From the NCBI RefSeq assembly GCF_900114345.1, contig NZ_FOZJ01000001.1:868001-932000 (forward strand): 64,000 bases of DNA, written 5' to 3'. The number at the start of each line of letters is the position of its first letter. Within the stretch, counting starts at the first letter, position 1. This DNA comes from Microbacterium sp. cf046 (GTDB taxonomy: Bacteria > Actinomycetota > Actinomycetes > Actinomycetales > Microbacteriaceae). The translations under genes and the position numbers were made by a program. The notes below the pieces were generated by a model. The model ran no database searches, had not been told where the DNA came from, and was given only the letters and a program-made list of their open reading frames with translations. Below, one piece after another: positions 1,452-24,891 of the stretch.

Positions 1452-1688
1452 GGTCGTGCGGCAGGGCGGCTCCGGCCTGCCTGTGGTCGGTTCGCATGGT
1501 CGGTGGGGCCTCCGCTTTCGTGCGCAGAGCTGCGCATCGCATTCCAATGGGTCGGCCCCAACCGACTCGTTGCTTCTGTCTTTCGACGTGCCAAGTGTCA
1601 CTCCGGCGCCGAGCACCCGAGCGGGGCTTGACATCTCGCCCGGCGAGCAATAGCGATCGCTCCGCGACTCGATCTCGCAAAGAACGGC

Positions 1689-1716
1689 GTAATGGATGCC
1701 GGATGTCGGCGTCCTA
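1689..1716 (+). promoter_or_regulatory. Promoter-like block A: GTAATGG-N14-CGTCCTA
   Basis: GTAATGG (1689-1695) is followed after exactly 14 bases by CGTCCTA (1710-1716). The same two boxes with the same spacing occur at 22746-22773, and identity extends to flanking GC before and AGTG after. Conservation of two boxes around a variable spacer is what a sigma-factor promoter would give, but it does not match the usual TTGACA/TATAAT consensus. Which sigma factor would read it is unknown. Confidence 0.5.
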
Positions 1717-1721
1717 GAAGT

Positions 1722-1828
1722 GCGGGGGGTTCGTCCTGGGCTCAGCCCCAGTTCGTTCGCCCCGTGGCGCCGCCCCAAACGGCGCCAGGGCCGACGTCAC
1801 TGGTTCATCCCCAGAGCGACGTCGGCCC
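1722..1828 (+). ncRNA. Candidate structured RNA A (C-rich-loop double hairpin)
   Basis: Downstream of block A the sequence folds into consecutive hairpins. A weak first stem pairs CGGGG (near 1723) with CCCCG (near 1760). Stem P2 is GGCGCCG (1766-1772) with CGGCGCC (1780-1786) around the loop CCCCAAA. Stem P3 has 11 perfect pairs (1788-1798 with 1818-1828) around a 19-base loop containing TGGTTCATCCCCAGA. The element at 22779-22881 has the same order, loops and compensatory base changes. Two C-rich-loop hairpins recall the actinobacterial 6C RNA, but the C runs here are four, not six, so identity is open. No ORF follows on this strand. Confidence 0.55.
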
Positions 1829-16052: not shown

Positions 16053-17951
16053 TTAGAGCGTCGGCGTGGTCAGGGTGGCGGTCGCCGTGCCCTGGTCGGG
16101 CTGCGACAGCGCTCTGATGAGCGACTGCGAATCGTATGGACCCGTGTGGCGGCGACCGTTGATGAAGAGAGTCGGCACCGACGTGATGTTCATCGCCTCG
16201 GCATCCAGCATGTCGTCGCGCACCCGGCCGGTGACCTCGGGAGAAGTCAGATCGCGTTCGAACTTCTCGATGTCGAGACCGAGCTCACGCGCGAGGCGGA
16301 TGATGTCGGAGGGTCGCTGGTTCTCCTGATCGGTGAACAGGCCGCGCTCGAACTCGAAGAACTTGCCCTGCAGGGATGCCGCCTCCGCGGCTTCTGCGCC
16401 CGCCAGTGCGTTCGGGTGGTACTGCGTCAGCGGCGCGTGCCGCCACACGTACCGCAGGTCGTCGCCGAGCTCCTCCTTGACCTCCTGGATCGAGCCGGAT
16501 GCCTTGAGGCAGAATCCGCACTGGAAGTCGCCGTACTCGACGATCGTGTACGGGGCGTTTTCGCTGCCGAACACGTGGTCGCGCTTCGCGTCGACCGGGC
16601 GCATCAGCGTCTGGCCGGATTCGAGGTCGGGGCGGACGACGTCGGAGATGCGGAAGATCACCGTCGAGACGAGGAAAGCGATGACGGATGCCGCGAGCAC
16701 GCCCACGCGCGCCTGGTTCTGGGCCGCCGGGTCGTCGATCGCGAGGTCGACGATGAAGAGCGAGATCGTGAAGCCGATGCCGCAGAGGGCGGCGCCCCCC
16801 GCGATGCGGTCGAGCGTGAGGCCAGGGCCGAACTCGCCGATCTTCAGCACGCGCAGGACCGCGGCCGAGCCGAACACGCCGATGAACTTGCCGACCACCA
16901 GGCCCACGACGATGCCCCATGTGAGCGCGGAGGTCATCGCCCCGGCCAGGATCTCCGGACTGATCACGACCCCCGCGTTGGCCAGGGCGAACAGCGGCAG
17001 GATCACGTATGCGACGTAGGGCGCGTAGGCCGACTGCAGCCGCTCGTTGATCGAGATCGACTCGCGGAGGCTGTTCGCCGCGGCGCGCGCGTACTCGGTG
17101 TTCGGCGACTGGCGGAATGTCCGGGCCAGGTCGAGGGCGTGCTCCACGTCGCGGCGGTCGGGCCGGTAGACGGGCACGAGGAGCGCGATCGCGACGCCGG
17201 CGAGCGTCGGGTGCACGCCCGAGGCGAGGAATGCGAGCCACACGATGATCGAGAGGGTCGCGTAGACCGGCCCGCGACCCCCGCGCAGGTAGCGCGTGAA
17301 GTACACGCCGGTGAGGCCGGCCGCCGCGATCAGCAGCGGCATCGGATTGAAGTTCTCGGTGTAGACGAGCGCGATGATGCTGAGCGCTCCGATGTCGTCC
17401 ACCACTGCGAGAGCCAGGAGGAACACGCGCAGCCGGCCCGGGACGCGCGGACCGATGAGCGCCAGCGCGCCGACGAGGAACGCGGTGTCGGTCGAGATGA
17501 CGATTCCCCACGCGTACTCGTGGCCCGACCCGGCTGCGATCAGCACGAACAGCAGCGCGGGGATCGCGAGCCCGGCGATCGCCGCGACCACGGGCACGAC
17601 CGCGCGCGACCAGCTCGTCAGCTCGCCGATGGCGAACTCGCGGCGCACCTCGAGACCGACCGTGAAGAAGAAGATCGCCATCAGAGCGTCGTTCACGAGG
17701 GCGTGGAGGGTGAAGTCGAGCTGCAGATCGCCCACGCCGACCGTGAGGTGGGTCTCCCAGAACGTCTCGTACGAGCCGATCGACACGTTCGCCCAGATGA
17801 TCGCCGCGGCCGTCGCGATCAGGAGGATCAGCGCACCGATCCGGTTCTGCCCCATCGCCCGGATCTTCTCGGCGATCGAGCGCCGAGTGCGCGACTGTGC
17901 TGCGACCTGCTCGGGATCGGGCGATCGCTGAATGATCGTCAGCTCAGTCAT
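16053..17951 (-). CDS. nhaA: NhaA sodium/proton antiporter fused to DsbA-like thioredoxin domain
   Basis: 632 residues against about 390 for E. coli NhaA. The antiporter half carries FFFTVGLEVRREF, STDTAFLVGAL and the essential double Asp in LALAVVDDIGAL, with about 11-12 membrane helices. From about residue 450 a DsbA-like domain follows, with ENAPYTIVEYGDFQCGFC (CGFC active site) and the cis-Pro motif ITSVPTLFINGR. Such NhaA-thioredoxin fusions are known in actinobacteria; the role of the redox domain is not established. It lies upstream of and close to the flavoprotein gene, so the two may work together in stress response. Confidence 0.92.
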   Translation of the reverse strand: MTELTIIQRSPDPEQVAAQSRTRRSIAEKIRAMGQNRIGALILLIATAAAIIWANVSIGSYETFWETHLTVGVGDLQLDFTLHALVNDALMAIFFFTVGLEVRREFAIGELTSWSRAVVPVVAAIAGLAIPALLFVLIAAGSGHEYAWGIVISTDTAFLVGALALIGPRVPGRLRVFLLALAVVDDIGALSIIALVYTENFNPMPLLIAAAGLTGVYFTRYLRGGRGPVYATLSIIVWLAFLASGVHPTLAGVAIALLVPVYRPDRRDVEHALDLARTFRQSPNTEYARAAANSLRESISINERLQSAYAPYVAYVILPLFALANAGVVISPEILAGAMTSALTWGIVVGLVVGKFIGVFGSAAVLRVLKIGEFGPGLTLDRIAGGAALCGIGFTISLFIVDLAIDDPAAQNQARVGVLAASVIAFLVSTVIFRISDVVRPDLESGQTLMRPVDAKRDHVFGSENAPYTIVEYGDFQCGFCLKASGSIQEVKEELGDDLRYVWRHAPLTQYHPNALAGAEAAEAASLQGKFFEFERGLFTDQENQRPSDIIRLARELGLDIEKFERDLTSPEVTGRVRDDMLDAEAMNITSVPTLFINGRRHTGPYDSQSLIRALSQPDQGTATATLTTPTL

Positions 17952-22652: not shown

Positions 22653-22745
22653 GGCGGGACTCCTCTCGCGACCGGCGGATGCCGGTTCACAAGCGGCGTC
22701 GAACGGCGGCCGGCGAAGTCGACAAAAAACTTTCTGCGAATCCGC

Positions 22746-22773
22746 GTAATGGATTCCGCGAACCGGCGTCCTA
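22746..22773 (+). promoter_or_regulatory. Promoter-like block B: GTAATGG-N14-CGTCCTA
   Basis: GTAATGG (22746-22752) and CGTCCTA (22767-22773) repeat the boxes and the 14-base spacing of block A. The boxes are identical while most of the spacer differs, and the following AGTG is shared. It precedes hairpins B and, 170 bases on, the tethered sigma-factor gene. Confidence 0.55.
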
Positions 22774-22778
22774 GGAGT

Positions 22779-22881
22779 GTGAAGTAGAGAACTGAATGCT
22801 TCACGGTGCTGCCCCAACAGCGCCTGGGCCGACGCTGCTTGGTTTCATCCCCAGAAGTCAGCGCCGGCCCTTACTTTATTT
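22779..22881 (+). ncRNA. Candidate structured RNA B, ending in a terminator-like hairpin
   Basis: Three consecutive stems follow block B: P1 GTGAAG (22779-22784) with CTTCAC (22799-22804); P2 GGTGCTG (22805-22811) with CAGCGCC (22818-22824) around CCCCAA; P3 22826-22837 with 22859-22870, 12 positions with one A-C mismatch, around a loop containing TTCATCCCCAGA. P3 is followed by TTACTTTATTT, as in an intrinsic terminator, so the product could be a free RNA of about 100 bases, or an attenuated leader of the sigma gene. P2 and P3 covary with element A. Kinship to 6C RNA is possible but unproven. Confidence 0.62.
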
Positions 22882-22941
22882 CCCGTTGCGGTTGGGTATC
22901 TCTCGCTTCCTTTGGCGCCCCGCGCATGATATGCATGCTCA

Positions 22942-24891
22942 ATGGCTGACGATTTGGGGTCGTCGCATGTTCGAACCGGTTTTGGGGAGCTGAGCGACGC
23001 CGAGCTGGTTCGCGCGACCCGTGACGGGTCGCGGCGTGCGTACGCGGCGCTCTGGGCGCGGCATTCCGTCAGCGCGCTCAAATACGCCAAGACCCTGACG
23101 ATGTCGGATGCCGACGACGTGGTGTCCGAGGCGTTCCTCAAGGTCTACGCCGCGATCAAGGCCGGCCGCGGGCCGGAAGAGGACTTCCGGTACTACATCC
23201 GCTCGGCCGTGCGGAACACGTACGTGTCCATGGTCAGATCCCGCCGCACGGCGCCCGCGGGCGATGCGATCGAAGACATCATCGGCGACCGGGGAGCCGA
23301 TGTCGCCTCGATGCGCAGCTTCGACGGATCCGTGACCGCCCGTGCCTTCCTCTCCCTGCCGGCGCGCTGGCAGGAGGTGCTCTGGTACACCGAGGTCGAG
23401 GGCTACACCCGCGATCACACGGCATCGCTGCTCGGCATGAACGCGAATGCCGTCTCGGCGCTCTCGTTCCGCGCACGCGAGGCCCTGCGGACGGCCTGGC
23501 TGCAGGAGCACATCAGCAGCCACTCCGACCTCGACCGCGGATGCGAAGCCATCACGCCGCTGCTCGGCGCGTACTCGCGTCAGGGGCTGTCGCGCCGCGA
23601 TCGCCTCCGCGTCGAGCACCACCTCAACGGCTGCGCACACTGCACCTCGGTCGTCGGTGAGCTCTCCGAACTCCTGACCCCCGGGCGTCTCGCCCTCGTC
23701 CTGCTGCCCGTCCTCGCCGCCGGAGGCGGTGTCGCGGCATACGTCTCGAAGCTCGGCGCCGGAGGCGGTGTCGCGGCATACGTCTCGAAGCTCGGCGCCG
23801 GATCGATCGCCGTCGCATCGGCATCCTCGATCGCGCCTCCGACCGCCCTGCTCGCCTCGGTGGGCGGGACGAGCGCGGGTGGCGCGGCGGCGCTGTCGGT
23901 CGTCGGCAAGGTGGCGGCGTGCGCCCTCGTGGCGACCATGATGGTGCCGCCGACCCAGATGCTCATCGAAGCTTCGCAGCACGCGCCTTCCGTCAGCCAT
24001 TCGACCAGTTCGGATGCGGACGCCGGATCCGGATCCCTGGACTCTCCGGAGTCCGAACCCGTCGACGTCGCCGGAGCGTCGGATGGGCCGGCGAACGGTG
24101 GCGGGGCCTCGACCGCTCCTGATGGCGACTCGGATTCCGGCATCGCGGGCACCGACGACAGCTCCGACTTCTGGGACGGGAGCGGCAACGGCCGCGCCCA
24201 GCCGAGCGGCAACGCGAACCCGCACGCGAGCGCGGAGGGCGCGGCGAACGGCAATGCGAACGCGAACGCGAACGACGACGCGAACGGCTCAGGCAACGGC
24301 AACGGCGCCGGCAACGCGAACAGCAGCGGAACCGGCTCGGCGAACAACTCCGGCAACGGTTCCGGAAACGCGAATGCGAACGCCAACGGCAATGCGAACG
24401 CAAATGCCAACGCCGACACGAACTCCAGCGCCAACGGATCGGGCCCTGCGAAGAAGGTGGTCGAGTCCGGCGCGAGCGCAACACCGAAGGCGACCACGAA
24501 CGCCAACGCCAATCCGAACGCCGCCACGACGGGCAACGGGAACGCAAACGCGAACAGCAACGCGAACGCGGGGCGGAACGGCAACGCGAACGGTGCTGAC
24601 GACGGGAACGCGGGCGGAAACGGGAACGGCAACGCGAACGGTGCTGCCGACGGGAACGCGGGCGGAAACGGGAACGGCAACGCGAACGGTGCAGCCAACG
24701 GAAACGGGAACGGCAACGCGAACGGTGCAGCCAACGGAAACGTGAGCGCGAGCGGCGCAGCGGACGGCAACGGCGCGGCGAACGGGAACGGCGCAGCGAA
24801 CGGCAACGGCAACGGCGCAGCGAACGGGAAGGCCAAGGCCGCTGCGGCCGCGCCGGAGGCCTCGGCGCCTGCGGAATCAACCGGTCCGTAG
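22942..24891 (+). CDS. Sigma factor fused to zinc anti-sigma motif, membrane segment and Asn/Gly/Ala-rich tail
   Basis: 649 residues. Residues about 10-195 are an ECF-type sigma factor: region 2 with ELVRATRDGSRRAYAALWARH and DADDVVSEAFLKVY, region 4 with LSLPARWQEVLWYTEVEGYTRDHTASLLGM. A zinc anti-sigma motif follows (His227-x3-Cys231-x2-Cys234), then a hydrophobic segment (about 250-270) and a second hydrophobic stretch near 310-330. The last 230 or so residues are almost only Asn, Gly, Ala and Ser. The layout predicts a sigma factor held at the membrane by its own built-in anti-sigma region, with the tail outside and possibly wall-associated. Release would need proteolysis; a secreted subtilase is encoded 2.6 kb downstream. 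Element B lies directly upstream. Confidence 0.8.
   Translation: MADDLGSSHVRTGFGELSDAELVRATRDGSRRAYAALWARHSVSALKYAKTLTMSDADDVVSEAFLKVYAAIKAGRGPEEDFRYYIRSAVRNTYVSMVRSRRTAPAGDAIEDIIGDRGADVASMRSFDGSVTARAFLSLPARWQEVLWYTEVEGYTRDHTASLLGMNANAVSALSFRAREALRTAWLQEHISSHSDLDRGCEAITPLLGAYSRQGLSRRDRLRVEHHLNGCAHCTSVVGELSELLTPGRLALVLLPVLAAGGGVAAYVSKLGAGGGVAAYVSKLGAGSIAVASASSIAPPTALLASVGGTSAGGAAALSVVGKVAACALVATMMVPPTQMLIEASQHAPSVSHSTSSDADAGSGSLDSPESEPVDVAGASDGPANGGGASTAPDGDSDSGIAGTDDSSDFWDGSGNGRAQPSGNANPHASAEGAANGNANANANDDANGSGNGNGAGNANSSGTGSANNSGNGSGNANANANGNANANANADTNSSANGSGPAKKVVESGASATPKATTNANANPNAATTGNGNANANSNANAGRNGNANGADDGNAGGNGNGNANGAADGNAGGNGNGNANGAANGNGNGNANGAANGNVSASGAADGNGAANGNGAANGNGNGAANGKAKAAAAAPEASAPAESTGP
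23720..23797 (+). repeat. 39-bp exact tandem duplication inside the sigma-factor gene
   Basis: Two identical 39-base units (23720-23758 and 23759-23797) encode a doubled GGGVAAYVSKLGA segment at the end of the predicted membrane helix. The period is a multiple of three, so the frame is kept. Exact identity indicates a recent duplication. Confidence 0.85.
24196..24835 (+). repeat. Low-complexity repeats coding for the Asn/Gly/Ala tail
   Basis: The stretch is built from aac, ggc and gcg-type codons in degenerate short repeats. Near 24585-24740 a longer unit of about 60 bases, encoding NGNGNANGA-type units, recurs three times with few changes. It stays in frame throughout and is coding sequence, not a CRISPR. 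Length is likely to vary between strains. Confidence 0.8.

Follow-up and report, generated by a model that had tools for sequence, protein, structure and literature searches.

Element B (22744-22882, plus strand) of the window, the whole 64,000-nucleotide stretch of Microbacterium DNA analysed here, is probably part of an RNA system driven by a sigma factor. The complete reading, in which B is the gene of a trans-acting small RNA (sRNA) with C-rich loops, controlled by the neighbouring sigma factor and acting by base pairing, is given a probability of about 0.6. B would then encode a small RNA about 100 nt long. Its promoter (22744-22774) would be used by the ECF sigma factor, the gene of which (22942-24891) is next to B on the downstream side. 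A zinc-finger segment resembling anti-sigma factors is part of this protein, which would probably be set free when a protease cleaves its membrane tether. Once active, it would transcribe B, a second element of the window (A) and a third RNA elsewhere in the genome (D). Transcription that continues beyond B would also include the sigma gene. A and B would use the CCCC-containing loops of their hairpin P2 and of the terminator-like hairpin P3 to pair in trans with GGGG-containing RNA, as reported for the 6C/B11 RNA. Partners would most likely be mRNAs, through G-rich sequences at their ribosome-binding sites, and the G-loop RNA D; D may form an sRNA/decoy pair with A and B. In many other Microbacterium, a similar sigma factor would drive an RNA with four GGGG hairpins from a divergent promoter. 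With this reading an unannotated intergenic hairpin is placed in a testable frame that comprises the sigma factor, the promoter and the RNAs made from it. Since many relatives have another RNA under similar control, a single bacterial signalling switch may act mostly by way of structured RNAs.

Structure and conservation of elements A and B

B begins with two boxes, continues with three hairpins (P1-P3) and ends in a U-rich run. The upstream, -35-like box GCGTAATGGAT (22744-22754) and the downstream, -10-like box CGGCGTCCTAG (22764-22774) form a putative ECF promoter. Folding and alignment place P1 (GTGAAGTA / TGCTTCAC) at 22779-22804, P2, with the loop CCCCAA, at 22805-22824 and P3 at 22826-22870. 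The U-rich tail 3' of P3, TTACTTTATTTC (22871-22882), is a possible end of the RNA. Element A (1687-1828, plus strand) likewise has two promoter-like boxes and three hairpins. Its boxes, at 1687-1697 and 1707-1717, have the same letters as those of B. Its P1 (1722-1765) is longer than that of B and differs in sequence, its P2 (1766-1786) has the loop CCCCAAA, and its P3 occupies 1788-1828. In both elements, P2 and P3 lie where they had been predicted. The original prediction also described the two-box block as identical at the two loci. This is true of the boxes and of their spacing, but the 9 bases that separate the boxes differ at 6 positions, and the block is therefore not identical throughout.

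The loops of P2 and P3 are nearly identical in A and B. Both P3 loops contain TTCATCCCCAGA, which the window contains at 1804-1815 and at 22844-22855 (0.17 occurrences expected; none of 100 shuffles contained two), and at no other site even when up to one mismatch is allowed. In A, part of the CCCC pairs within the P3 loop. A strict terminator scan, which accepts loops of up to 8 nt and thus shorter than that of P3, reported no terminator at A or B. The predicted folds of 22740-22885 (B) and 1700-1850 (A), promoters included, are better than those of 200 out of 200 dinucleotide shuffles each, with z-scores of -3.70 and -3.77, respectively.

A blastn search with B through 98 genomes (the own genome and relatives) gave matches in three, namely the own genome, where B itself and A were found, G003 and G025. 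The G025 match (L005) was discarded: it comprises 29 nt of block-like sequence, and no B-like hairpins are seen there by eye. The G003 copy is 92% identical to B and occupies the same place upstream of the orthologous sigma-factor gene, the product of which is 85% identical to that of the window. A further B is present in the named MAG Microbacterium sp. BWSM_6 (JASBUD010000067.1), where the sigma protein is 81% identical.

A, B and the copies from G003 and BWSM_6 constitute the alignment used for the covariation analysis. Standard pairs fill 102 of its 108 cells (94.4%), compared to at most 53.7% for slid structures. Two-sided changes are found at 5 of 27 stem pairs; shuffles gave 1.8 +/- 1.1, and 3 out of 500 were as high. 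Between A and B, the P2 stem has one one-sided change (U-G/C-G) and one two-sided change (U-A/C-G), and the P3 stem has two two-sided changes (C-G/U-A and U-A/C-G), the very substitutions that were noticed originally. P1 is also kept, with two both-sided changes. One position of P3 is a mismatch, A.C in B and U.U in both B orthologues, and is an A-U pair in A. The covariation of four sequences is good but modest support for the structure. Together with the orthologues and with the third own-genome relative, D, it bears out the earlier claim of a conserved RNA fold.

A covariance-model search had been suggested as the way to find homologues. The model R1, built from the same four sequences and run over 198 genomes of the genus, returned the known copies and D. 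The search was run under Infernal's stricter filters, so that weak copies may be missed. With these filters the C-loop form is found in 2 of the 198 genomes and at 1 of 80 named sigma loci. It is thus a narrow form, present in three lineages, and for this reason the covariation rests on four sequences. D is located on the minus strand of another contig (G000:C1:806152-806284, equivalent to L122:1501-1633) and was matched with an E-value of 7.4e-9, part of the score stemming from the promoter columns. It has the same promoter boxes as A and B, a different P1 and a terminal hairpin with the G-rich loop CACUGGGGAGGUG, in which the loop letters are CUGGGGA. A 163-codon open reading frame starts about 100 nt downstream of D on the same strand.

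The two copies 21 kb apart, the third on another contig and the strong palindromic hairpins might also be expected of a mobile or repeat element, a REP- or MITE-like palindrome that carries a promoter-like block with it. Only three copies were found, however, and their stems have changed in a compensatory manner while the loops of A and B were kept. Furthermore, B is at the same place in three lineages, and the block also occurs independently upstream of sigma-factor homologues. A repeat origin of A, B and D is highly improbable.

The probably tethered sigma factor and its putative promoter

The gene at 22942-24891 (plus strand) encodes an ECF sigma factor that continues into a zinc-finger segment (zf-HC2), as judged from profile matches. 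The scores are 31.3 bits for Sigma70_r2 (cut-off 24), 52.4 for the sigma70-ECF profile TIGR02937 (cut-off 42.9) and 22.9 bits for Sigma70_r4_2, just under the Pfam cut-off of 25.7. The zf-HC2 match, at residues 201-234 of the same chain, reaches 30.6 bits (cut-off 22.2). The protein thus contains sigma-70 regions 2 and 4 and a fused zinc finger. Hydrophobic stretches and a long Asn/Ala/Gly-rich tail, both recognised by eye, follow. The tail is encoded (24169-24837) by a repeat array with a mostly 12-base spacing. Homologues in relatives are mostly 41-47% identical, and none of 18 stretches of viral contigs that matched a peptide pattern encodes a relative of the protein. The succession of sigma regions 2 and 4, zf-HC2, hydrophobic stretches and tail resembles, by domain order alone, the ECF48/52/53 proteins (e.g. 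SCO4117), in which a zinc-finger anti-sigma segment and membrane helices are fused to the sigma factor. For these actinobacterial groups with a fused zinc finger, activation by proteolysis is expected according to a review of ECF sigma factors (PMC8999054), in which the term 'small RNA' does not occur.

The two-box block looks like an ECF-type promoter of the presumably tethered sigma factor next to it and not like a part of the RNA, a role that the original prediction did not recognise. The two boxes recur upstream of the relatives of the sigma gene, often once on the sigma strand and once divergently. Of 80 sigma loci, 78 were counted, two being omitted for their short upstream sequence, and a few others offered only about 300 nt. 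These loci contain 99 sites within at most 410 nt upstream, all 99 with the same spacing even though the pattern would have accepted one base more or fewer. A co-directional site is present in 47 loci, a divergent one in 50, both in 38, at least one in 59 and neither in 19. The rest of the same loci, used as a control, gave 18 hits in 900,612 strand-bases, which corresponds to about 1.3 expected upstream. The loci with neither site belong to Plantibacter, Leifsonia or Herbiconiux (8), named Microbacterium (9) and other MAGs or isolates (2), and some contain near-misses of the pattern.

A longer pattern gave 44 sites in 25 chosen relatives, compared to 1 for the reversed control pattern, with sites in 22 of the 25; 31 of the 44 are at the sigma locus, as judged from coordinates. 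Some of the off-locus promoters precede protein genes (L168, L191 and L192), and the regulon of the relatives is therefore not composed of RNA only. Other off-locus hits (L166, L169, L175 and L177) are in apparent coding regions by eye and were set aside as probably due to chance. The small proteins of L168, L191 and L192, which belong to three relatives, share the stretch LDLSIDEE by eye, and this small protein is a possible protein member of the regulon. A looser pattern gave 8 hits in the own genome, against 4 controls. Only A, B and D carry the strict motif CGTAATGGAT, and all three copies precede hairpin RNAs. The predicted strict-motif regulon of this genome thus consists of three RNA genes, one of which, B, runs toward the sigma gene itself. 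Trans-acting sRNAs made by an ECF sigma factor are familiar from the sigma-E system of enterobacteria (MicA and RybB). There, however, the regulon is large, consists mostly of protein genes and includes few sRNAs, whereas all three strict sites here precede RNAs.

Because the block behaves as an ECF promoter, from which transcription would start at about 22777-22780, the original idea of an independent RNA starting near 22780 is supported indirectly. B is also suitably placed for a cis-acting leader, an attenuator or riboswitch-like element in which P3 and the U-run would stop transcription unless a signal opens the structure. Attenuation is possible because B is situated downstream of the promoter and upstream of the sigma start codon. 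This codon is 71 nt away from the end of P3, which is followed by the U-rich tail. The B orthologues hold the same place in G003 and BWSM_6. In addition, P1 of B resembles by eye the hairpin after the sigma promoter in relatives, many of which have P1-like GTGRAG..CTYCAC inverted repeats there. However, A has the same P2 and P3 but no same-strand gene close behind it, except for a mechanical open reading frame antisense to the next gene, which encodes a KdpE-like regulator and is convergent. This speaks for an independent RNA. The folds of A and B, computed as general folds alone, show no competing anti-terminator pairing. Furthermore, the ATG of the sigma gene has no clear Shine-Dalgarno sequence in the three B lineages, and the motif TAnGCAT, common to all three and ending about 5 nt before this ATG, may be a separate promoter of a leaderless sigma mRNA; both features were recognised by eye. 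A cis-acting leader is a possibility of some weight, though not a probable one.

The G-loop RNA of relatives

In many relatives, a conserved stretch of about 175 nt is located 3' of the divergent promoter; the copy at L083:2552-2723 (minus strand) is an example. A pattern search found 67 such sequences, 57 of them distinct and a few atypical or cut short, of which 26 were aligned. The alignment has four hairpins in which 94.8% of 1,039 cells are paired, compared to at most 54.0% in slid controls. Two-sided changes are present at 16 of 40 pairs; shuffles gave 8.0 +/- 1.5 and none of 500 was as high. The hairpin loops contain GGGG in 26/26 (P1), 25/26 (P2), 26/26 (P3) and 26/26 (P4) of the sequences. 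The P4 loop contains UCUGGGGA in 24 of the 26, and CCTCGGGGGAGGAG, beside the GGGG loops, is invariant in all of them.

The covariance model of this G-loop RNA, R2, reaches an E-value of 0.01 or better in 65 of the 198 genus genomes. The weakest match only just passes this limit, and some of the 65 genomes had contributed to the seed alignment of the model. R2 has no match in the own genome (G000) or in G003. Counted from the table of named sigma loci, 47 of 80 have a match. Several loci contain tandem copies about 210-250 nt apart, and the RNA is also found off the sigma locus after a similar promoter (e.g. L180, L193 and L197). A peptide-coding function was considered and rejected: none of the frames contains an open reading frame with an ATG or GTG start in all 26 sequences (TTG starts excluded), and the length from P1 to P4 differs from that of the first sequence by a number of bases that is not a multiple of three in 15 of the 26. 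Rfam searches of 14 sigma-homologue loci at the gathering threshold returned only one tRNA and five ZTP riboswitches, and no family matched the G-loop RNA at its cut-off in the places tested. As a widespread, strongly covarying RNA with no such match, it is a candidate new family, the role of which can be tested in laboratory strains.

Hairpins that repeat a loop motif are the layout of protein-sequestering RNAs. In this respect, and by RNA layout alone, the G-loop RNA with one short motif in each loop resembles the CsrB/RsmZ decoys, but its motif is GGGG(A) and its promoter is of the ECF type. The RNAs might accordingly be ligands of a protein with specificity for apical loops of CCCC or GGGG, so that sequestration of this protein would take the place of RNA-RNA pairing. 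The occurrence of GGGG in four loops and the invariant neighbours such as CCTCGGGGGAGGAG would fit such a function. The loops of A and B, however, are C-rich, the complement of the G-loops, which would not be expected of RNAs that share a protein ligand. Protein sequestration is distinctly unlikely.

Loop complementarity and the relationship to 6C RNA

The sequence UCCCCAGA in the P3 loop of A and B is the exact reverse complement of UCUGGGGA in the P4 loop of the relatives' RNA, and it complements the loop of D over 7 nt. On account of this complementarity and of the 6C/B11 precedent, A and B are read as base-pairing C-loop sRNAs, and D and the RNA of relatives as G-loop partners or decoys. 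With accessibilities computed, the interaction energies of B with D and of A with D are -5.8 kcal/mol each, and 0 and 3 of 60 shuffles, respectively, were as good. The best accessible contact between B and D consists of 4 pairs, between CCCC of the P2 loop and GGGG of D, and does not contain the conserved 7-nt match of P3. The contact is predicted to form through P2 and not P3 because in P3 some of the CCCC is engaged in pairs within the hairpin itself. The own genome was searched, with at most one mismatch allowed, for the complement of the 12-nt loop sequence. There are 13 sites (4 controls), of which two, the only exact ones, are A and B, and the 11 one-mismatch sites include no convincing target.

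In 6C RNA, by definition, each of the two hairpin loops has a run of about six C. A and B resemble this RNA (RF01066; B11 of Mycobacterium) in being short actinobacterial RNAs with C-rich hairpin loops, one of them on a terminator-like hairpin, but their loops have 4 C and not about six, and B has a different promoter. A and B do not qualify as 6C RNA, the family singled out for checking in the original prediction, as no Rfam family, 6C included, reaches its cut-off at either element. The whole window has no Rfam match at the gathering threshold. Near B, three chance-level matches appear up to an E-value of 10, none of which is 6C, and A scores 16.9 bits with RF01066, the curated cut-off of which is 47. 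Permissive searches with B, A, D and one copy of the G-loop RNA gave nothing near a family cut-off. Their lowest E-values were for D as an sbcD RNA (22.5 of 40 bits, E 0.013) and as a viral frameshift element (27.3 of 40 bits, E 0.015), and both assignments were rejected. The best reading is that B would work like a 6C RNA without belonging to that family, and would perhaps serve as an attenuator in addition. In Mycobacterium, according to a study of 6C/B11, it is the C-rich loop on the terminator that makes the contact with the target (PMC12395582).

Apart from A and B, the own genome has a 6C-like RNA at G000:C1:858650-858742 (equivalent to L233:651-743), found with an E-value of 6.6e-16. 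A genus model, R3, built from 15 sequences of the genus, identifies such RNAs with C-rich loops in 173 of the 198 genomes. The Rfam 6C model matches 22 of the 198 at an E-value of 0.01 and exceeds its cut-off in 3, and it misses the own-genome copy at an E-value of 0.1; the RNA is called '6C-like' for these reasons. When R3 was run against the loci that hold A and B, neither element scored up to an E-value of 10. R3 matches the strand opposite D, a palindromic hairpin, with 30.2 bits (E 5e-6). Shortly 3' of the terminator hairpin of the 6C-like RNA, several species have TCCTCCCC, often as TCCTCCCCAG: it is found just after position 743 of L233 and in the 3' flanks of L202, L204, L207, L209 and L211. 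The complement of this motif resembles the G-loop motif.

Pairing of D with the 6C-like RNA of its own genome is predicted at -7.7 kcal/mol, better than 59 of 60 shuffles. For A and the same RNA the value is -4.6 (4 of 60 shuffles as good), through other letters, and B does no better than shuffles with it. In the relatives, pairing of the G-loop RNA with 6C is predicted at -7.6 to -11.0 kcal/mol in each of the 7 genomes tried. Shuffled 6C sequences were often equally good: in five genomes 7 to 22 of 60 were, and in the remaining two 1 and 2 of 60. Composition therefore explains most of this pairing, and 6C was rejected as a specific partner of the G-loop RNA. A 6C-like hit is also present in 61 of the 65 genomes with the G-loop RNA, as read from two tables, a co-occurrence that carries little weight because the 6C-like RNA is nearly universal.

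A wider circuit may be envisaged, in which a tethered ECF sigma factor acts mainly on structured RNAs, and the G-loop RNAs (D and those of relatives) are decoys of the C-loop RNAs (A, B and the housekeeping 6C-like RNA). Such a circuit is tentative and rather unlikely. If it did exist, an envelope signal would reset post-transcriptional control by loop-loop RNA pairing. If the G-loop RNAs did pair with 6C-type RNAs, they would be the first known decoy for that class of RNA; to our knowledge, none has been described earlier, and no title among the 6C papers listed points to one. Among the titles and abstract openings listed for open-licence papers on Microbacterium sRNAs with sigma factors, on 6C sponges or C-rich loops, on actinobacterial RNAs with G- or C-rich loops and on sRNA regulons of ECF sigma factors, nothing was found on these RNAs. 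Elsewhere in the window, a long open reading frame on the minus strand (16053-17951) appears by eye to encode an antiporter of the NhaA type with a thioredoxin-like domain (PYTIVEYGDFQCGFC) behind it.
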